A stretch of 31,070 nt of DNA from a virus, in the IMG/VR virus record IMGVR_UViG_3300017709_000017, positions 1 to 31,070 of that record. The stretch is one strand, 5' to 3'. The stretch's first letter is position 1; each line of letters begins with the position of its first letter. The notes under the pieces are model-generated. The model did no database searches. It was not told the origin of the DNA and saw only the letters and a program-made list of their open reading frames with translations. Shown here one piece after another: positions 7,316 to 26,530 of the stretch. The position numbers and the translations under genes were made by a program.

Positions 7316-7498
7316 ATTGTGACACTCCTCTAATTAAAACAAAGGTTTAACGCCTTGAGTTTATCGGAGTGATCCGGACTCTGACTTCGTTGTGCGTAAC
7401 GCAACGTGTAATTTCTTACAGCCAGAACGGGCTCTATGGCTTGTCGTTCATCTAACGCTTACCACAACATTATGTGTTTCGTCAACCTAAACGTATCT
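7316..7498 (-). ncRNA. Structured 5' leader of the major capsid mRNA
   Basis: There is no open frame here. On the minus strand the leader contains a run of short hairpins. In plus coordinates they are: 7365-7376 (CGGA/TCCG stem, 4-nt loop), 7388-7406 (CGTT and GCG paired with CGC and AACG, one 2-nt bulge, 3-nt loop), 7407-7420 (TGTAA/TTACA with GAAA loop in the RNA) and 7420-7433 (AGCC/GGCT, 6-nt loop). Stems 2 to 4 are almost contiguous. The capsid ribosome site GAGGAG follows in a less structured stretch. This could stabilise the capsid mRNA or be a regulatory RNA. I see no tRNA or known riboswitch. Confidence 0.5.
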
Positions 7499-7512
7499 TC
7501 TAGGTCTTGAAC
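7499..7512 (-). promoter_or_regulatory. Conserved 14-nt motif, copy 1 (upstream of capsid)
   Basis: On the minus strand this reads GTTCAAGACCTAGA. It overlaps the stop codon of the scaffold gene and lies at the 5' edge of the capsid leader. It is one of five copies in the window that share 13 of 14 positions with the consensus GTTCAARACCTAGA. All are oriented towards a downstream leftward gene block, so a promoter or activator/operator site is likely. Confidence 0.7.
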
Positions 7513-8276
7513 TACTTTACAGTCTCTTGAAATGTACGCTCTACAGAATTTCTGTATTTTGCATCTGTTTGGTATCTTGGGTCTTGAACCAGTGCAAACA
7601 ATTCGGATTTGTCATACGCCTGACCTGACACAGAAGCAACCGGGATTTCTTTTTCACCCATAAGCCCACGAACTTTTTGCAGCAATCGTTGACCGGCTGC
7701 TGTACCACCGAGAACTTCAAGTTCTTGGTAGTCATCTTCTGTGAATACACCCTTGTTTACAAGTCCTCGACCCCATTGCACATTGGATTTTATGATATCA
7801 TCTGCGTTTTTACCTAACGCTGCTTTTTCCGTCGCAATATTAATTTGGGCATCATTCACCTGAGAGTTTTGTATTTCTACAAATTTTTGCCCTAACTTGT
7901 TAAAGGCTTCCTGTGAAATCATGTTTTCTTTTGCCCAATCCTGATAGCTTGCTAAGAGGGGATCGTCGGGTGCAAACTCACCAAGGTCTTTTGTTTCATA
8001 AACTTCGGGGGGCTTATGCTCACCTCGACTCATTTTTGTTCTTAACTCAGAATAAGATTTTTTTGTTTTATTAAATTCACCCATTAAGGCTTCAATCTTA
8101 GGACCTGAATCGGCATCCCAATATTCTTCCGGCAAATATTCCGGGCGTGTAAACTCAACTTCGTCAGGCTCAACAGCCGGTTCTTTATGCACCATTTCTT
8201 GTGTATCTGACTCTGTTTCTTCACTTTTATGTTCAGCCATTAATCCTTGCGTTTCTTCTTTTACTTCTTCAGCCAT
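7512..8276 (-). CDS. Capsid scaffolding protein
   Basis: This 254-aa protein has a very acidic N-terminal third (Glu-rich, first 45 residues). A charged helical middle follows, with LMGEFNKTKKSYSELRTKM and QEAFNKLGQKFVEIQNSQV. It lies between portal and major capsid, where T7-like phages put gp9 scaffold. FTRPEYLPEEYWD near residues 42-54 and a C-terminal helical tail fit scaffold proteins of this class. It overlaps the previous gene by 8 bp. The stop codon is embedded in the conserved 14-nt motif. The role in procapsid assembly is inferred from order and composition. Confidence 0.85.
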   Translation of the reverse strand: MAEEVKEETQGLMAEHKSEETESDTQEMVHKEPAVEPDEVEFTRPEYLPEEYWDADSGPKIEALMGEFNKTKKSYSELRTKMSRGEHKPPEVYETKDLGEFAPDDPLLASYQDWAKENMISQEAFNKLGQKFVEIQNSQVNDAQINIATEKAALGKNADDIIKSNVQWGRGLVNKGVFTEDDYQELEVLGGTAAGQRLLQKVRGLMGEKEIPVASVSGQAYDKSELFALVQDPRYQTDAKYRNSVERTFQETVK

Positions 8277-14480: not shown

Positions 14481-14649
14481 TTGTCTCTCCTGAAAGTTGA
14501 AAAAAGTTTTGTGAGGTACCCCTCTATACGCACGACGGGGTAGCCCCCCATAAGTGCCTTTTTCGTAAGGGTGGGCTGCCCTTCTTTTTTATTCCTACGC
14601 CCTAGCTATCTCCCTTTATTTGTACTGTGTTCAAAGTGTATAACGAACA
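14481..14649 (-). promoter_or_regulatory. Leader region of the SSB/terminase transcript
   Basis: No gene is present. On the minus strand the leader between the motif and the SSB ATG holds a G/C-rich segment with GGGCAGCCC, a G6 run and a second GGGGTACC, able to form stem-loops. CAGGAGAGA precedes the ATG. It is unlike the AT-rich surroundings in composition. Confidence 0.45.
14537..14590 (+). terminator. Stem-loop plus U-tract, plus-strand orientation
   Basis: On the plus strand GGGTAGCCC (14538-14546) can pair with GGGCTGCCC (14573-14581), 9 pairs including one G-U. It is followed at once by TTCTTTTTT, the form of an intrinsic terminator for rightward transcription. No rightward gene lies near, so it may block antisense transcription into the replication genes. 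On the minus strand the same arms form a leader hairpin (one A/C mismatch) in the SSB mRNA. Which use is real is unknown. Confidence 0.45.
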
Positions 14650-14663
14650 TCTAGGTTTTGAAC
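14650..14663 (-). promoter_or_regulatory. Conserved 14-nt motif, copy 2 (upstream of SSB/terminase block)
   Basis: Minus-strand GTTCAAAACCTAGA, just downstream of the initiator stop codon and about 170 nt before the SSB start. It fully matches the five-copy consensus. Its GTGTTCAAA half recurs inverted at 14627-14635, making a 9-bp dyad seen only at this copy. Confidence 0.7.
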
Positions 14664-14664
14664 A

Positions 14665-15546
14665 CTAACGCTTATTGTTAAATGCATCCTTGTAAAACGC
14701 AAGTGAGAAGGGTGGTTGCTTCTCTTCCTTCTTGTACCACATGATCGACTGAAGTATCTCTTTCTTCCATTGGTCCAAGGTTACGCCAGTGCTTGCTATG
14801 TCCTCTGCGATTGCCTCTTGCCTTTCGTCCCACCTGAACTGTCCTCTTGTGCCTAGCTGTAAATCTAATGTCGTAATGTACCATTTTACCATTTCTTTAG
14901 AAATCTCTTTAGTATTAGTATTGTCGTTAGATAATACGTTACTTACAACCTCACGTTGTTGTTCACTCATACAACCTCTAGATGTTGTATAACTCTCCTT
15001 CTTTTGTCTCTTTTTAGCAGTAGGTTTAACAACCTGATGTTGTGCAACTGTGGATAACTTCTTCATTGTTTCACTCGCTTCCTGTGTTTCTAAGTACTCA
15101 ACTTTGTTTACCATTTTACTCGTTAATTCTTCATCACTGACACCGGGATCGTAGATGATTCTCCATGTGGCTCCCTTTCTTCCGACCTTCCGTAATCTAT
15201 TCTGCTGTCCTATTTTCTTCACATATCCCCATTCCTCAAGCAGCTTCATTTGCCGACTGACCGCTTGCTGTGTCTTCCCTAATAGCTCTGCGATTGTCTT
15301 TTGATTGGGAAACAAGGTCCCGGCTTTATTGGCATACAAAGCCAAAGCACAGAGCATGAGAAACGTGGAACTATGGTTGCGAAACCTTGCATCAGCAATG
15401 GCTCTGGATGGTCCTATAAAGTACGCAGCCGGTGCCGTTCGATCATTGGTTGCCGTGTTGTACTCTGCGTCCGGCTTTGTGATTTCCTCACGGGCTTTCT
15501 TACGCTCTTCTAGGATATCTTTATCTCTCATATAGACAACATTCAT
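14665..15546 (-). CDS. Replication initiator, lambda O-like, with internal origin
   Basis: This 293-residue protein has an N-terminal winged-helix domain at about residues 55-130: HSSTFLMLCALALYANKAG, LFPNQKTIAELLGKTQQAVS, then LLEEWGYVKKI and GATWRIIYDP. A charged linker (about 150-210) and a helical C-terminal domain (about 215-290, with MVKWYITTLDLQLGTRGQ and WKKEILQSIMWY) follow. This is the organisation of phage O-type initiators, in which the N-domain binds iterons and the C-domain recruits host replication proteins. Repeated dyads and a DnaA box lie in the DNA encoding the linker, exactly as ori-lambda lies inside O. The gene follows a DnaA domain IV-like gene by one base. No helicase loader is seen nearby. 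Confidence 0.75.
   Translation of the reverse strand: MNVVYMRDKDILEERKKAREEITKPDAEYNTATNDRTAPAAYFIGPSRAIADARFRNHSSTFLMLCALALYANKAGTLFPNQKTIAELLGKTQQAVSRQMKLLEEWGYVKKIGQQNRLRKVGRKGATWRIIYDPGVSDEELTSKMVNKVEYLETQEASETMKKLSTVAQHQVVKPTAKKRQKKESYTTSRGCMSEQQREVVSNVLSNDNTNTKEISKEMVKWYITTLDLQLGTRGQFRWDERQEAIAEDIASTGVTLDQWKKEILQSIMWYKKEEKQPPFSLAFYKDAFNNKR
14945..15057. other. Candidate replication origin: three dyad iterons plus a DnaA box
   Basis: Three copies of ACAACCT...GTTGT-type dyads start at 14945, 14971 and 15029, with plus-strand cores ACAACCTCACGTTGTT, ACAACCTCTAGATGTTGT and ACAACCTGATGTTGT. They are followed by a perfect consensus DnaA box, TGTGGATAA (15049-15057; TTATCCACA on minus). An AT-rich stretch lies next to them at about 14895-14940. 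All of this is inside the linker-coding part of the initiator gene. The architecture is lambda ori-like; function is inferred. Confidence 0.6.
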
Positions 15547-15547
15547 G

Positions 15548-15820
15548 TTACTTCACCAATAAGACTTCGGCATGGTAGGTTAGGTTTTTATAATGTGATG
15601 CGTAATCCTCGTCTTCATTCATCAGAACATTATGCCTCTTGAGATAATGGATAGCAGAAGTGTGATCCCGGTGCAAAGAACGTCCAATCTGGGGAAAGCT
15701 AAACCTGAAATGCCGGGCGAGGGCTGCGTACAAATACTTAAACACAACATTATGTTGATCGGCTCTCTTTTGATCTCGAAACGCATTAAACTCGGCACCA
15801 GTAATGATTTCAAACACCAC
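15548..15820 (-). CDS. Stand-alone DnaA domain IV-like DNA-binding protein
   Basis: The DUF1064 gene ends 17 bp upstream and no ATG is available, so I start at the GTG at 15820 (or 15817), preceded by GAAGAGG. The 90-aa product has ALARHFRFSFPQIGRSLH RDHTSAIHYLKRH (residues about 33-62). This matches the signature helix-turn-helix of the bacterial DnaA C-terminal domain, with the conserved R-D-H-T-x-x-x-H that contacts the DnaA box. No AAA+ ATPase domain is present. With the initiator immediately downstream and a perfect DnaA box inside that gene, it likely binds the phage origin, either helping or replacing host DnaA. Alternatively it titrates boxes to control timing. Confidence 0.75.
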   Translation of the reverse strand: MVFEIITGAEFNAFRDQKRADQHNVVFKYLYAALARHFRFSFPQIGRSLHRDHTSAIHYLKRHNVLMNEDEDYASHYKNLTYHAEVLLVK

Positions 15821-15837
15821 AATAACCTCTTCAATAT

Positions 15838-16185
15838 CTATACTTCCGTGATGATTGTCCCCGGGAAATACGCCTCGACCAACTTCTTTTTGAGCCGATA
15901 AACCGGGGTTTTCACTCCCTTCACATCCTCGACCACCATGGCTCCGAATTGACCGTCTACTCCCTTCACATTCTTGTCGATGTACTGAAAATCTGCCCGG
16001 TATGTGCATATCTTTCTCCCATTAATTTCTACTTTAAATTGTGGCTGCAATTCCAAATGACTGATACTGCCTGTCTTTTCTCTCAGTTTAAGAATCGCAT
16101 AGCGATTAGCTTCCTTCTTGGAGTCAAAGGTAATGCCATCAAGAGTGGTTTTAATCGCCCGGTATTTATTATGAGTAAACTTCAC
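15838..16185 (-). CDS. DUF1064 family, PD-(D/E)XK nuclease-like
   Basis: This 115-residue protein has the family layout: KYRAIKTTLDGITFDSKKEA (residues 8-27), ILKLREKTGSISHLELQPQF, then TYRADFQYID and VVEDVKGVKTPVYRLKKKLV. The E in the KKEA helix, the D in YRADF and the E-x-K pair in VVEDVKG form a PD-(D/E)XK-type active site. Such phage proteins are considered endonucleases, possibly acting on branched DNA, but I know of no firm substrate. It starts with GTG overlapping the previous TGA. Its place between regulator and replication genes fits a role in processing replication or recombination intermediates before packaging. Confidence 0.85.
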   Translation of the reverse strand: MKFTHNKYRAIKTTLDGITFDSKKEANRYAILKLREKTGSISHLELQPQFKVEINGRKICTYRADFQYIDKNVKGVDGQFGAMVVEDVKGVKTPVYRLKKKLVEAYFPGTIITEV

Positions 16186-16397: not shown

Positions 16398-16600
16398 TCG
16401 ATTGACCCGGTTTGTCGTCGGCTGTTGAACTTGCAAGACAGCTTCAGTTCTTCTTCAATCAATCGAAACAATTCTTTCATGTCCTTTTCCTTTCGCACCA
16501 ACATATTAAGATTTTGGCACCGCTTGTACTGGATCATCGCCTCTTGAACTTTCTTGTACTGAACAGGGATTGTCGCCCTGATAACTTGCAACTCTGTCAT
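16394..16600 (-). CDS. Hypothetical charged helical protein (68 aa)
   Basis: This 68-residue, mostly helical protein contains YKKVQEAMIQYKRCQNLNML then EKDMKELFRLIEEELKLSC, a likely coiled-coil hairpin, and a basic tail. It overlaps the ribbon-helix-helix gene by ATGA at its start and the next gene by ATGA at its end. It could be a partner of the ribbon-helix-helix protein or a small regulator. No family is recognised. Confidence 0.65.
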   Translation of the reverse strand: MTELQVIRATIPVQYKKVQEAMIQYKRCQNLNMLVRKEKDMKELFRLIEEELKLSCKFNSRRQTGSIE

Positions 16601-16809
16601 TGTCCAAGCATCCTTTCCACAGCGTCATTTACGTCATTTATAGCCGTTTTGCGTCTTTTTGGCTCCGGGTTTTCAAGAGATTGTTTGAGTAACACTTGTG
16701 CAAGGCTTGCCATAGATCGTCGTTCATTTTCAGCAACTTGCTTGAGTTTCTTATGCAAATCTTCTTCGATTCGTATGTATAAAGGGACCAACATTTCTAT
16801 TCCGTTCAT
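16597..16809 (-). CDS. Ribbon-helix-helix DNA-binding regulator (CopG/Arc type)
   Basis: Residues 8-45 read VPLYIRIEEDLHKKLKQVAE then ERRSMASLAQVLLKQSLE. This is a beta strand with alternating residues, a first helix and a second helix entered at the MASLA turn, as in CopG/Arc transcription factors. Length is 70 aa from the first ATG. A second ATG five codons in (16794) has a better-placed GGA. It is the first gene of the leftward early block and lies 12 bp from a copy of the conserved 14-nt motif in the divergent control region. It is therefore a candidate for autoregulation or for controlling the early/late switch. Confidence 0.75.
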   Translation of the reverse strand: MNGIEMLVPLYIRIEEDLHKKLKQVAENERRSMASLAQVLLKQSLENPEPKRRKTAINDVNDAVERMLGQ

Positions 16810-16821
16810 AAAAAAGTACCA

Positions 16822-16835
16822 TCTAGGTCTTGAAC
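16822..16835 (-). promoter_or_regulatory. Conserved 14-nt motif, copy 3 (divergent early region)
   Basis: Minus-strand GTTCAAGACCTAGA lies 12 bp upstream of the regulator gene and inside the only divergent intergenic region of the window. The short distance to the ATG means a transcript starting in or after it would have almost no leader. It fits the five-copy consensus. Confidence 0.7.
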
Positions 16836-16858
16836 ATATGATATCGTTATGCTATCTG
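16830..16858 (+). promoter_or_regulatory. Possible rightward early promoter
   Basis: On the plus strand TTGAAC (16830-16835) and TATCTG (16853-16858) are 17 nt apart, a weak sigma70-like arrangement ahead of the rightward operon. The -35 overlaps the conserved motif, so a factor bound there could switch direction. The -10 match is poor. Confidence 0.3.
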
Positions 16859-17084: not shown

Positions 17085-17347
17085 TGGTTACGAAAAAAGA
17101 AATAAGGCAGTTTGATAAAATATCTAAACGCTACAAACCTAAACTGTCTGATACTGAATTTTATTATGTACGGGATGCAGTGTCTTTCTATGGAAAATCT
17201 AAAAAAGGAACCCCATACCAAGATATACATAAAGTGGTTTCAGACGTTTTTGATAAAGCAGAAAAGAAAGCTCAGAAAATTCTCGACAATCATATCAAAA
17301 AAGAAAAGTCGCATAATATATATAGGGGAAAAAGTGATGGCTCTTAA
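17084..17347 (+). CDS. Hypothetical Lys-rich early protein (87 aa)
   Basis: This is a highly basic 87-residue protein, rich in Lys and Tyr: TKKEIRQFDKISKRYKPKLS, then FYYVRDAVSFYGKSKKGTPY and a C-terminal Lys-rich helix. It starts in the previous stop (TAATG) and ends 11 bp inside the recombinase gene, so the three are co-translated. It may bind nucleic acid. No family is recognised. Confidence 0.7.
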   Translation: MVTKKEIRQFDKISKRYKPKLSDTEFYYVRDAVSFYGKSKKGTPYQDIHKVVSDVFDKAEKKAQKILDNHIKKEKSHNIYRGKSDGS

Positions 17348-18170
17348 AATTAGGGATACAGCCGGGCAAGAACATAACGACACAGAGTATTTCGCTTATG
17401 TCCGGGTCAGTACCGACAAACAGGATACCATTAACAACCGTCATATCATTGAAAAGTGGCTTAACGGTGGGGATCATAAAGTAAAATGGTACGAGGATTC
17501 CGGGTACTCAGGTTCTATAGCTCTCAGAGAGCGTCCGGGGCTGCACCAGTGCATTAAAGATGCGAAAGCTGCGAAAGGGACCATTATTGTTGCAACGCTC
17601 GACCGGTTTGGTCGTAAGGCTTGGGAAACATTGCAGTTCTTCGATCAGGTCGTAGCCAAGGGCAAGGTGAAGTTTGTCTGCTGCGATGATCCTACAATCT
17701 CAGAGGATAAAATGCGACTGCATATGAAAGCTATGTTTGCTGAATTTGAACGTGAGAAAATACAAGAGCGTACCAAAAAGGCATTGGATCGTATTAATCA
17801 AGAGATAGCCGAGAAGGGGTCCTATATAACAAAAGAGGGCAAGACCATCACGCAGTTGGGGGGCAATAAAAACATGGATAAAGCCCGGGCTGCTTCCTCT
17901 CAAAAAGTACAATCTAAAGCCGACTATTTTGCCGATATGATGCGTCCTGTAATCTTGGACCTTTTGAGAAGAGGGTTTACTTTTCGGGATATGGCAGACT
18001 ATCTTGAAGCGAAATCCGTTATGTATCCTACCCAAAGAGGGGGAAAATGGGGTGCATCAACGGTCTATAATTTGGTCAAACGAATACGAAAATTCGGGCC
18101 AGATACTGCAAGTGAAATTGATAAACTTGTAGAAAGTAACGTCATTAACAAAGGAGAGAAAAATGACTGA
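17337..18170 (+). CDS. Serine recombinase (resolvase/invertase-type, small)
   Basis: I start at the ATG at 17337, preceded by AGGGGAA. The 277-aa protein has the resolvase catalytic domain in its N-terminal 150 residues. The motif FAYVRVSTDKQD contains Arg23 and the nucleophile Ser25, DSGYSGS and RPGL follow, then LDRFGRK (Arg90, Arg93), and AMFAEFEREKIQERTKKAL leads into the E-helix. The C-terminal 100 residues contain a helix-turn-helix-like region (LLRRGFTFRDMADYLEAKSV, then GGKWGASTVYNLVKRI). It is too short for a large serine integrase with a zinc ribbon and coiled coil. Roles could be DNA inversion, resolution of genome multimers, or integration. No inverted recombination sites flank an obvious invertible segment. 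Confidence 0.92.
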   Translation: MALKIRDTAGQEHNDTEYFAYVRVSTDKQDTINNRHIIEKWLNGGDHKVKWYEDSGYSGSIALRERPGLHQCIKDAKAAKGTIIVATLDRFGRKAWETLQFFDQVVAKGKVKFVCCDDPTISEDKMRLHMKAMFAEFEREKIQERTKKALDRINQEIAEKGSYITKEGKTITQLGGNKNMDKARAASSQKVQSKADYFADMMRPVILDLLRRGFTFRDMADYLEAKSVMYPTQRGGKWGASTVYNLVKRIRKFGPDTASEIDKLVESNVINKGEKND

Positions 18171-18468
18171 ACAAAATTATGTACGACAGATAATAAATGA
18201 TGCAGAATATTTGCGATACCGTGGGATGCGAGTCGCAAGCCGAATTACTGTGCCTTTAACGAGTACACCTCATATTAAAAATGCAGCCGTTGCGTTTCGT
18301 CACCTTGCTAAAGAGTTAAATGCAATCTTTCGGGATAGCAAACGCTCAGACATTGATAAAGTTTACTTTGCACAGCAGCTTGCAACTTCCACAGGACAAC
18401 GCCTTAAAGGTGAAGCAAGTCCAAATGGTTTTTGGGGTGCGGATGGCTCTTATAAGGGTGTAAGATAA
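18163..18468 (+). CDS. Hypothetical early protein (101 aa)
   Basis: It begins 8 bp before the recombinase stop, after AAAGGAGAG. The sequence MTEQNYVRQIINDAEYLRYR, then a helical middle, SDIDKVYFAQQLATSTGQRL and an end GFWGADGSYKGVR, shows a mixed helical protein with a Gly/aromatic tail. No domain is recognised. Its place between the recombinase and recombination enzymes suggests an accessory role, but this is a guess. Confidence 0.7.
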   Translation: MTEQNYVRQIINDAEYLRYRGMRVASRITVPLTSTPHIKNAAVAFRHLAKELNAIFRDSKRSDIDKVYFAQQLATSTGQRLKGEASPNGFWGADGSYKGVR

Positions 18469-18566
18469 ATTATATTCACGGCTTAGACGGGTATTCTAGG
18501 CTTTTGTATCAAAATGGTGACCCCGATAAGGTTATGAACAGGGGTTTAAAAATAGGGAAAAAATAT
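18469..18566. other. Non-coding gap in the rightward operon
   Basis: About 98 bases lie between a hypothetical gene and the membrane protein gene. I see a loose resemblance to the conserved motif (TTCTAGG then CTTTTG near 18494) but with an inserted base and no GAAC, so I do not call it. No terminator or convincing promoter is visible. Confidence 0.4.
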
Positions 18567-18827
18567 ATGAAACATATACTTAGCAATCTGTATGACTCTA
18601 GTAGTCGCATAATATATATTATGACAGGTCGTTATCAGACCTATCAATCTAAATTAATTAGTCTTTCACTAATTGGACTGTTTGTCCTGTGCATAGAAGC
18701 AATTATTCTTCTCGGCATTTTTCTGATTCTTATACTATCACTTTGGTTTGGTTGTACAATAACTGATTCTTGTTATGCCGTTCAAAATGTATCTATAACC
18801 TCTAGCAAATGGAGGTCATTTACATGA
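18567..18827 (+). CDS. Small membrane protein in the recombination operon
   Basis: The first ATG with an acceptable site (AGGG) is at 18567, giving 86 residues; the frame could be read from 18504 with a TTG. The N-terminal 30 residues are polar. A hydrophobic stretch of about 34 residues (ISLSLIGLFVLCIEAIILLG, IFLILILSLWFG) then makes one long or two short membrane segments, and a polar tail follows. Its TGA overlaps the exonuclease ATG (ATGA), so it is likely a real gene. A single membrane protein among DNA-recombination genes suggests superinfection exclusion or host membrane targeting. This is inference only. Confidence 0.6.
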   Translation: MKHILSNLYDSSSRIIYIMTGRYQTYQSKLISLSLIGLFVLCIEAIILLGIFLILILSLWFGCTITDSCYAVQNVSITSSKWRSFT

Positions 18828-19747
18828 AATGGAGTGATGATTCTGTTGAGTTGGGTGCAAGTAAAGTAGCACCATTAATTTTAGATCAAGGGGCGTTTGG
18901 AACCGTAGCCGAGGATATACGCCAGTTAGTTTTAAATGCTAAGAAAGGTTTAAAGTCTTCAACCTATTTTAATAAAGCTGCTATTGAACGTGGGAATAGA
19001 CTTGAGCCGGCATTGAAGATTTGGGCTATGGATGAACTGCAATCTATGTGTGGTCCAAATGTGATGGTCAATGGGATTGAGCCTGAAGACGCTGATCGGC
19101 TGCCGGAGTACAAACTGGCTGCAAGTTGTGATCATAAAGTTTTAATTGTGGGTGGTGAATTAACGGTACCAAATCCCATGGGGGATGATTTCGCAATGAA
19201 GGGCGAGATACCATTAGAGATTAAAACAGATGGTACATCAGATGGACCACCCAAGTACGATTATATTATACAGTTAAACGTGCAGATGAAGTGCATGGGT
19301 GCTGACTTTGGTGTGATTGCTGTGCTGTCCAAAGGCTTGAAGTTTACTTTATATCCTTACAAACGAGATAAGGAGCTTTGTAAATTAATTGAAGAACGAG
19401 TGACAGACTTTTGGCACCGGGTAAAACACAACATTCCTTATCCTGAGAAAAAAGATAGTAAGCCGGAAACGATTAACTTGGATCGTCTTAATTCTAAGAA
19501 GTCTGTTCTTGATTGCATCGACAATTATCACAAATGCGAGTCTGAAGTGGACAAGTGGACTGAAGAAAAGACAAACGCAAAGAATGTTTTGGTCGGAGTT
19601 CTTGAAGCCCACAATGCTCAGTACGCTGAAATTGGTGATTATAAAATTAACTATCCTGTTGTGGAACGCAAAGCCACGCCAGAGAAAACTGTCCCGGCAA
19701 AACCGGCAACGCAACATCGACGATTTAGTATAGAGGTGAGAAAATGA
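18824..19747 (+). CDS. YqaJ-type exonuclease (lambda-exonuclease-like recombination nuclease)
   Basis: I use the ATG at 18824, which has GGAGG 8 nt upstream. The 307-aa protein carries the YqaJ family active site in order: ERGNRLEPAL (Glu61), AASCDHKVL (Asp103), PLEIKTDG (Glu132, Lys134) and YIIQLNVQM (Gln150/Gln154). It would degrade the 5' strand of double-stranded DNA ends, leaving 3' tails for the annealing protein encoded next. The pair forms a lambda Red/RecET-type recombination system. The C-terminus is a charged, Lys/Glu-rich extension beyond the nuclease core. It overlaps recT by ATGA. Confidence 0.93.
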   Translation: MKWSDDSVELGASKVAPLILDQGAFGTVAEDIRQLVLNAKKGLKSSTYFNKAAIERGNRLEPALKIWAMDELQSMCGPNVMVNGIEPEDADRLPEYKLAASCDHKVLIVGGELTVPNPMGDDFAMKGEIPLEIKTDGTSDGPPKYDYIIQLNVQMKCMGADFGVIAVLSKGLKFTLYPYKRDKELCKLIEERVTDFWHRVKHNIPYPEKKDSKPETINLDRLNSKKSVLDCIDNYHKCESEVDKWTEEKTNAKNVLVGVLEAHNAQYAEIGDYKINYPVVERKATPEKTVPAKPATQHRRFSIEVRK

Positions 19748-20562
19748 AAAACGCACTTGTTCCTACAAATATATCAGAAGCCATGCAGATCAGCGAAATG
19801 CTTGCAAGCTCGACTGTCATTCCAAAAGACTACGTGGGAAAACCTGCCAATGTCTTTGTGGCAATTAATGCCGGGATGTCGATGGGCTTGTCACCTTTTC
19901 AAGCCATGCAGAACATAACGGTTATCAATGGCAAACCCTCTGTGTGGGGGGACGCTATGCTCGGTATGGTTCGATCTTCTCCCAAGTGTCTTGGAATTGA
20001 CGAGACTGTAACGGGTGAGGGAGATAAAAGAACGGCTACCTGTATAGCGACTCGTAAAAATGGCGATGTAATTGAAAAGATTGAAAGATCGTTCTCTTGG
20101 TTTCAAGCAAAGAAGGCAAACTTAACAACCCGGGGACCGTGGCAAGCCTATCCAGATCGGATGTTGCAAATGAGAGCCAGAGGGTTTTGTCTCAGAGACG
20201 CATTTCCTGACGTACTGGGGGGCGTTATTACTGCCGAGGAAGCCCAAGACTACCCGGACACTCAACCGACCCTAGAACCCCCAAAAATGGAAGCTATAGA
20301 GTCAAAGCCAGAAGAGCCTTGGGTAATTCATGTGCCGGGTAAAGACTCTATCGTGGTTAACAACGCTGAAACGTGGGCTAATGGTTATGAAGCCATGGCA
20401 AACCAAATTATTTCAGCAAAAAAACTAACTAAAGTGTCTAAAGCAGAAAAACTTATTGCTTTTCGATCTGTAAACCAAGCTGCGTGGGATGAACTTCAAC
20501 AAGATCATGAAGAACTTTATAATAAACTTATGAAATTAGAGGAGAACTTTAATAATGAGTGA
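19744..20562 (+). CDS. RecT-family single-strand annealing protein
   Basis: This 272-residue protein matches the RecT family core. SEMLASSTVIPKDYVGKPAN is followed by VAINAGMSMGLSPFQAMQNI, VINGKPSVWGDAMLG and MVRSSPKC, and then WQAYPDRMLQMRARGFCLRD and AFPDVLGG. These correspond to the beta-hairpin and helical elements that bind single-stranded DNA in RecT/Redbeta-type proteins. The C-terminal 90 residues are acidic and lack conservation by eye, usual for an interaction tail. It pairs with the overlapping exonuclease for homologous recombination, concatemer formation and repair at phage DNA ends. Confidence 0.92.
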   Translation: MKNALVPTNISEAMQISEMLASSTVIPKDYVGKPANVFVAINAGMSMGLSPFQAMQNITVINGKPSVWGDAMLGMVRSSPKCLGIDETVTGEGDKRTATCIATRKNGDVIEKIERSFSWFQAKKANLTTRGPWQAYPDRMLQMRARGFCLRDAFPDVLGGVITAEEAQDYPDTQPTLEPPKMEAIESKPEEPWVIHVPGKDSIVVNNAETWANGYEAMANQIISAKKLTKVSKAEKLIAFRSVNQAAWDELQQDHEELYNKLMKLEENFNNE

Positions 20563-22395: not shown

Positions 22396-22402
22396 CGTTA
22401 GG

Positions 22403-22416
22403 TCTAGGTTTTGAAC
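22403..22416 (-). promoter_or_regulatory. Conserved 14-nt motif, copy 4 (upstream of lysis cassette)
   Basis: Minus-strand GTTCAAAACCTAGA lies just downstream of the preceding gene's TAG, 8 bp before the lysis block's first ATG. It exactly matches the five-copy consensus, suggesting separate control of lysis genes. Confidence 0.7.
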
Positions 22417-22418
22417 AC

Positions 22419-26485: not shown

Positions 26486-26500
26486 AGTCTATTCCTCACT

Positions 26501-26514
26501 TCTAGGTTTTGAAC
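26501..26514 (-). promoter_or_regulatory. Conserved 14-nt motif, copy 5 (upstream of tail fibre)
   Basis: Minus-strand GTTCAAAACCTAGA lies between the large virion gene and the tail fibre. It is 15 bp before the fibre ATG, and the ribosome site GTGAGG follows it directly. It exactly matches the consensus and divides the late region into separately controlled blocks. Confidence 0.7.
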
Positions 26515-26530
26515 ATAGCATAAAGCATTA

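Follow-up and report, generated by a model that had tools for sequence, protein, structure and literature searches.

At the origins of iteron plasmids of the pSC101, P1, F and R1 type, an adjacent DnaA box serves host DnaA. These plasmids depend on host DnaA and are not known to encode a mimic of its domain IV, and phage lambda is not known to encode a DnaA-like protein. In lambda, DnaA-binding sites are located near the origin and origin activation is stimulated by DnaA (PMC3985674). The residues of DnaA that make base-specific contacts are R399, P423, D433, H434, T435 and H439 (PMC7561715). In addition, DnaA was among the proteins common to all HTVC010P-related genomes (PMC6811365).

The window analysed here is a virus record of 31,070 bases from a phage of marine type, whose large terminase was 71% identical to the counterpart in Methylophilales phage MEP301. 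A small gene for a stand-alone protein resembling DnaA domain IV was identified in a leftward early operon with the following features:

15548-15820, minus strand: stand-alone 90-aa DnaA domain IV-like protein with a GTG start (Pfam, phage profile, AF2 and Foldseek)
15826-15832, minus strand: Shine-Dalgarno-like GAAGAGG ahead of the GTG start (from the sequence)
15632-15688, minus strand: helix-turn-helix signature IGRSLHRDHTSAIHYLKRH, residues 45-63 of the 90-aa protein (from the translation)
14665-15546, minus strand: phage replication initiator of 293 aa with an HTH_36 winged helix (PF13730, E 9.3e-10)
15838-16185, minus strand: DUF1064 protein (Holliday-junction resolvase PHROG), upstream in the same operon (PF06356, E 3.1e-21; phrog_190, E 1.8e-32)
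16597-16809, minus strand: ribbon-helix-helix (RHH, Arc/CopG-like) protein heading the operon (PF07878, E 7.6e-7; phrog_3180, E 4.7e-9)

The reading frame of the 90-aa protein started with GTG at 15820 and its stop ended at 15548, as first annotated. A longer reading of 153 aa, in the same frame that is open up to 16009, was rejected because the extension overlapped the DUF1064 gene and was without support. The operon ran from the RHH gene (16809) through two small ORFs, the DUF1064 gene and the 90-aa gene to the initiator, which was followed by an intergenic gap and then SSB. The 90-aa gene is the same-strand neighbour of this HTH_36/DnaD-like initiator, with exactly one base between its stop and the initiator ATG at 15546 (junction GTGAAGTAACATGAATG). 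The initiator also resembled DnaD-like and O-like initiation PHROGs (phrog_270, 2.2e-9; phrog_186, 7e-8).

Other features of the window were observed outside these genes. The sequence GTTCAARACCTAGA (minus strand) occurred in five dispersed copies at 7497-7513, 14648-14664, 16820-16836, 22401-22417 and 26499-26515, all in one orientation and all in gaps ahead of minus-strand genes, compared with 0.2 copies expected and none of 100 shuffles reaching five. It was also present after the initiator in the relatives L002, L003 and L005, and is a candidate phage promoter or operator, perhaps bound by the RHH protein. At 17112-20562, a resolvase/invertase-like serine recombinase was encoded ahead of genes resembling RecE and RecT, an order shared by MEP301 (recombinase, YqaJ and annealing protein).

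The only Pfam match to the 90-aa protein was Bac_DnaA_C (PF08299) with an E value of 4.9e-4 and 20.5 bits, which did not reach the gathering cut-off of 31.5 bits, and a family search of the window record showed no Bac_DnaA_C match above the search threshold, either in this gene or elsewhere. The AAA+ ATPase domain III (Walker A/B) was absent from the protein, and the ORF list contained no AAA+ ORF of DnaA length nearby. In the PDB sequence search, three DnaA entries were the best hits (E 0.017-0.07) and the fourth, weaker hit was 5duk, a putative DNA-binding protein. As the Pfam score amounted only to a "perhaps", phage DnaA-IV proteins were gathered with motif scans of IMG/VR and profiles of their DnaA-IV domains were built without any window sequence; a mixed alignment (A2) was too diverse for scanning. 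The phage profile matched residues 8-81 of the 90-aa protein with 49.7 bits (E 3e-13 for 20,000 sequences). The best full shuffle scored 16.9 bits and the best shuffle with the motif kept (IGR..HTSAIH) scored 39.4 bits, with none of 20,000 of either type reaching 49.7 bits. The profile produced from the generic canonical-motif scan alone gave 32.4 bits compared to at most 26.2 bits for motif-kept shuffles. Masking of the motif reduced the score to approximately 3 bits, which indicated that the helix-turn-helix bears most of the signal and that the flanks contribute a modest but real share.

The AF2 model, produced with a 55-sequence alignment that was made up of DnaA-like proteins, showed five helices with a pLDDT of 85.5 and a pTM of 0.77; single-sequence AlphaFold performed poorly (pLDDT 47) and was discarded. 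The top Foldseek matches of the AF2 model were 3pvp_B, 3pvp_A and 1j1v_A with TM 0.73-0.80 and a probability of 1.00, and the next match had a TM of 0.43. The initial annotation had described the protein as the signature of DnaA domain IV and no other part of DnaA, and this description was upheld by the single Pfam match, by the 49.7 bits of the phage profile and by the model, which matched DnaA domain IV only. Assignment to a different HTH family was rejected, since the Pfam and PDB sequence searches both pointed to DnaA and the next-best folds were so much weaker. Judged from its sequence and predicted structure, the 90-aa protein is a divergent, near-minimal DnaA domain IV without the AAA+ part, and the domains for ATP binding, oligomerisation, DNA melting and helicase contact are missing from it as read and modelled.

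All six base-contact residues of DnaA were retained in the 90-aa protein, with the alignment less secure around R399, and the equivalents of D433, H434, T435 and H439 were borne by the helix-turn-helix signature. Position 407 was K in the 90-aa protein and R in 192 of the 193 family rows compared, and further substitutions were Q408 to Y, T436 to S and A440 to Y. With the six contacts kept but positions 407, 408, 436 and 440 changed, recognition of DnaA boxes is plausible but not assured, and the affinity or specificity of the protein may differ from those of DnaA owing to R407K, Q408Y and A440Y.

Direct relatives of the 90-aa protein were not found with tblastn in phages nor in 84,980 genomes. 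In IMG/VR, tblastn produced one relative, on L003, where only the last 27 codons were within the contig; identity over those 27 residues was 96% (L001/L003). In L002 and L004, with initiators 95% and 82% identical, respectively, the DUF1064 gene was followed by the initiator within approximately 10 bp and no DnaA-IV gene was present between them. No DnaA-IV gene was found elsewhere on the partial contigs L002 and L004 or in the complete MEP301 genome by a search that also missed the partial copy on L003. As far as these contigs show, the 90-aa gene is dispensable in close sister phages. The single and truncated other carrier and the two sisters without the gene would suit a decayed remnant or an over-called ORF with no function. 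However, the intact frame, the Shine-Dalgarno sequence, the tight junction, the near-identity of the L003 fragment and the extent of the profile match make this reading highly improbable.

The slot directly upstream of the initiator, which lies behind DUF1064 in the window, L010 and L011, was occupied by unrelated genes in different relatives. A cytosine methylase-like gene was present in L010 (5334-6194), a 62-aa ORF in L011 (5338-5526) and L012, and a different small ORF in L006 (2968-3252). By comparison of these contigs, the slot is a mosaic hotspot of gene exchange.

A putative origin was identified inside the initiator gene with the following elements:

15049-15057, minus strand: perfect DnaA box TTATCCACA within the initiator gene, invariant in L002-L005
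15029-15043, no strand assigned: palindromic iteron ACAACCTGATGTTGT adjoining the DnaA box, conserved in relatives
14971-14988, no strand assigned: palindromic iteron ACAACCTCTAGATGTTGT
14945-14962, no strand assigned: palindromic iteron ACAACCTCACGTTGTTGT

Chance alone would place approximately 0.01 perfect DnaA boxes in a gene as long as the initiator, and the distance from the box to the nearest iteron was 5 bp. The flank of the box was, like the box itself, invariant in all four relatives that covered the region (L002, L003, L004 and L005). At conserved residues, 83% of the codons were unchanged in the origin stretch compared to 55% elsewhere (Fisher p = 0.0045). From its sequence features, 14945-15057 is a lambda-like origin within the initiator gene which is conserved at synonymous sites. 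The plan recurred at 3652-3711 of L006, whose initiator was 35% identical, where two 19-nt iterons were separated by 8 bp from a perfect box.

The initial annotation had placed the 90-aa gene one base upstream of an initiator holding a perfect DnaA box, and both the junction and the box at 15049-15057 were confirmed. The link that it implied between the 90-aa protein and the box was not borne out. In L002 and L004 the gene was missing before the initiator and the box was exactly retained, and a perfect box was also present in L006-L008, which have 35% identical initiators and no DnaA-IV gene found on their contigs, with iterons beside the box of L006. The box therefore does not require the 90-aa protein. 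In addition, perfect boxes were found near DnaA-IV genes at 5 of 159 loci with no clear enrichment, so that the usual site of the family may be something else. For these reasons the box was rejected as proof of the target of the 90-aa protein. The simplest reading would be that the box is used by host DnaA, much as host DnaA works near ori-lambda (PMC3985674), and that in phages with the gene the small protein acts there alongside host DnaA, in its place or against it. A DnaA fold of changed function, which would bind a sequence other than the DnaA box or act by protein contact only, is consistent with this lack of enrichment, with the sub-threshold Pfam score and with the substitutions at R407, Q408, T436 and A440, but the retention of all six listed base-contact residues argues against it and we consider it quite unlikely.

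The 90-aa protein could also be a transcriptional regulator with a binding site close to the early operon, adjusting initiator expression in the way that DnaA regulates its own gene. It is through domain IV, the part present here, that DnaA also controls transcription, and the 90-aa gene precedes the initiator within one operon. However, no canonical DnaA box was found upstream of the operon or between the operon start and the initiator, the sole perfect box being the one inside the initiator gene, and the first gene of the operon already encodes an RHH protein, which leaves regulation a rather unlikely role.

Stand-alone DnaA domain IV proteins were found to be common in phages. The canonical-motif scan of IMG/VR showed at least 120 contigs with DnaA-IV, and 109 of 120 located proteins (119 among the matches listed in that scan and L079) were shorter than 300 aa. 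The motif scan for the short-loop form produced 83 contigs, with nearly all ORFs short. Named carriers included Pelagibacter phages HTVC010P, HTVC203P and Greip, Rhizobium RHph_N28_2, Tenacibaculum Gundel_1, Cellulophaga phi46:3 and Bradyrhizobium prophages, together with PHROGs 16091 and 30669, and stand-alone DnaA-IV proteins have already been annotated in pelagiphages. With so many carriers, named phages among them, the arrangement is not rare. As a phage-borne DnaA-IV ORF of less than 300 aa with no AAA+ part, the 90-aa protein fits this class and is a divergent member of a widespread, functionally uncharacterised group of phage proteins. The initial annotation had called a split system of this kind little studied; for function, this was consistent with a literature search that found no functional work on phage stand-alone DnaA domain IV proteins, but it did not hold for occurrence, since the kind is widespread and annotated in phages. 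One contig (G053, the contig of L251) carried two DnaA-IV genes approximately 1.4 kb apart at 42258-42464 and 43887-44129.

The pairing of a DnaA-IV gene with an initiator was not unique to the window. In the unrelated contig L079 (15-957), the DnaA-IV ORF overlapped an HTH_36/DnaD_N initiator, and the next gene after DnaA-IV encoded a DnaD-like loader in L262 and a primosomal protein in L243. In RHph_N28_2, the DUF1064, DUF1376 and DnaA-like genes were consecutive, which are the three gene types of the window in a different order, while an annotated replication protein adjoined the DnaA-like gene in ctOK67 and Gundel_1. Among neighbours at positions ±1-2, the top PHROGs were primosomal and initiation families with 8 members each of 148, and these were absent from the top 25 at positions ±5-7. 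The position test on 50 whole contigs used the initiator families DUF1376, HTH_36, phrog_3992 and phrog_1408, which were picked from the neighbour tally of a first set, and showed a detectable initiator-family gene in 26 contigs, the nearest one being on the same strand in 26/26 and within 1.5 kb in 21/26. Random placement produced a mean of 2.4 within 1.5 kb and a maximum of 9 in 20,000 trials compared to the 21 observed, and a harder null with placement within 6 kb produced a mean of 7.9 with none reaching 21. In the second set of 25 records including L079, 10 had a match, of which 8 were within 1.5 kb and all 10 on the same strand, which indicated that the coupling pattern is not only a product of selection. 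The coupling of stand-alone DnaA-IV genes to phage initiators looks undocumented so far. What is new here is the quantified same-strand closeness to initiators and the natural comparison between phages that have the gene and phages that lack it, with origin and box unchanged. The closeness to initiators suggests that phages may have a general way of dealing with the DnaA-box system, by takeover, bypass or block.

Shut-off of host replication and helicase loading, both put forward in the initial annotation, are speculative roles. A dominant-negative competitor would mask the DnaA boxes of the host, at oriC and elsewhere, and so halt host initiation, leaving nucleotides and replisomes for phage use, with the initiator being just another early gene. 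Base-reading residues kept without AAA+ or helicase-contact domains are the composition expected of such a competitor, and the early operon position and the dispensability of the gene are in agreement with it. However, a host-directed weapon need not adjoin the initiator, yet the DnaA-IV gene does so in many unrelated phages; no other recognised host-takeover genes were clustered here among the Pfam and PHROG matches, and the divergent R407, Q408 and A440 positions would weaken competition. Overall, this role is possible but on the unlikely side.

Our preferred reading, held tentatively from sequence and model, is that the 90-aa protein binds DNA as an accessory to the phage initiator and substitutes for or competes with host DnaA. 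It would sit on a DnaA-type site, for which the box lying 5 bp away from the iterons is the simplest candidate, in place of host DnaA or as its competitor. The adjacent initiator would meanwhile bind the iterons and recruit the helicase machinery, and in sister phages without the gene this box would be left to host DnaA. DnaA-box binding, cooperation with the initiator and independence from host DnaA are what we infer for this accessory. In a broader form, a domain IV box reader and a helicase-recruiting initiator (DnaD, DUF1376 or O-like) would be separate, co-expressed polypeptides of one phage orisome in many lineages. Such a split initiator is a more doubtful proposal; if true, it would release phages from dependence on host DnaA and from the cell-cycle control of that protein. 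Hundreds of phages, HTVC010P-type pelagiphages among them, contain a stand-alone DnaA domain IV. The window is a compact test case in that its close sisters share one origin and DnaA box whether or not they carry the gene.

Compared with known systems, the 90-aa protein shares with cellular DnaA domain IV (PF08299; 1j1v, 3pvp) the fold (TM 0.73-0.80), the helix-turn-helix signature and the six base-contact residues, and with Mycobacterium tuberculosis DnaA the short loop IGxxxxRDHT. It differs from cellular DnaA in the absence of domains I-III, a reduced N-terminal helix region and the four substitutions at positions 407, 408, 436 and 440. With phage stand-alone DnaA-like proteins it shares a domain IV without AAA+ and a location in the replication region, often beside initiators, whereas the named-phage examples examined are 116-191 aa with extra N- or C-terminal sequence and the window protein is near-minimal. 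The window resembles lambda O/ori-lambda in that its initiator gene contains the origin and several palindromic iterons, and differs in its HTH_36/DnaD-like initiator and in a perfect DnaA box that is only 5 bp away from an iteron. Finally, with iteron plasmids of the pSC101, P1, F and R1 type it has in common iterons or initiator sites with an adjacent DnaA box.
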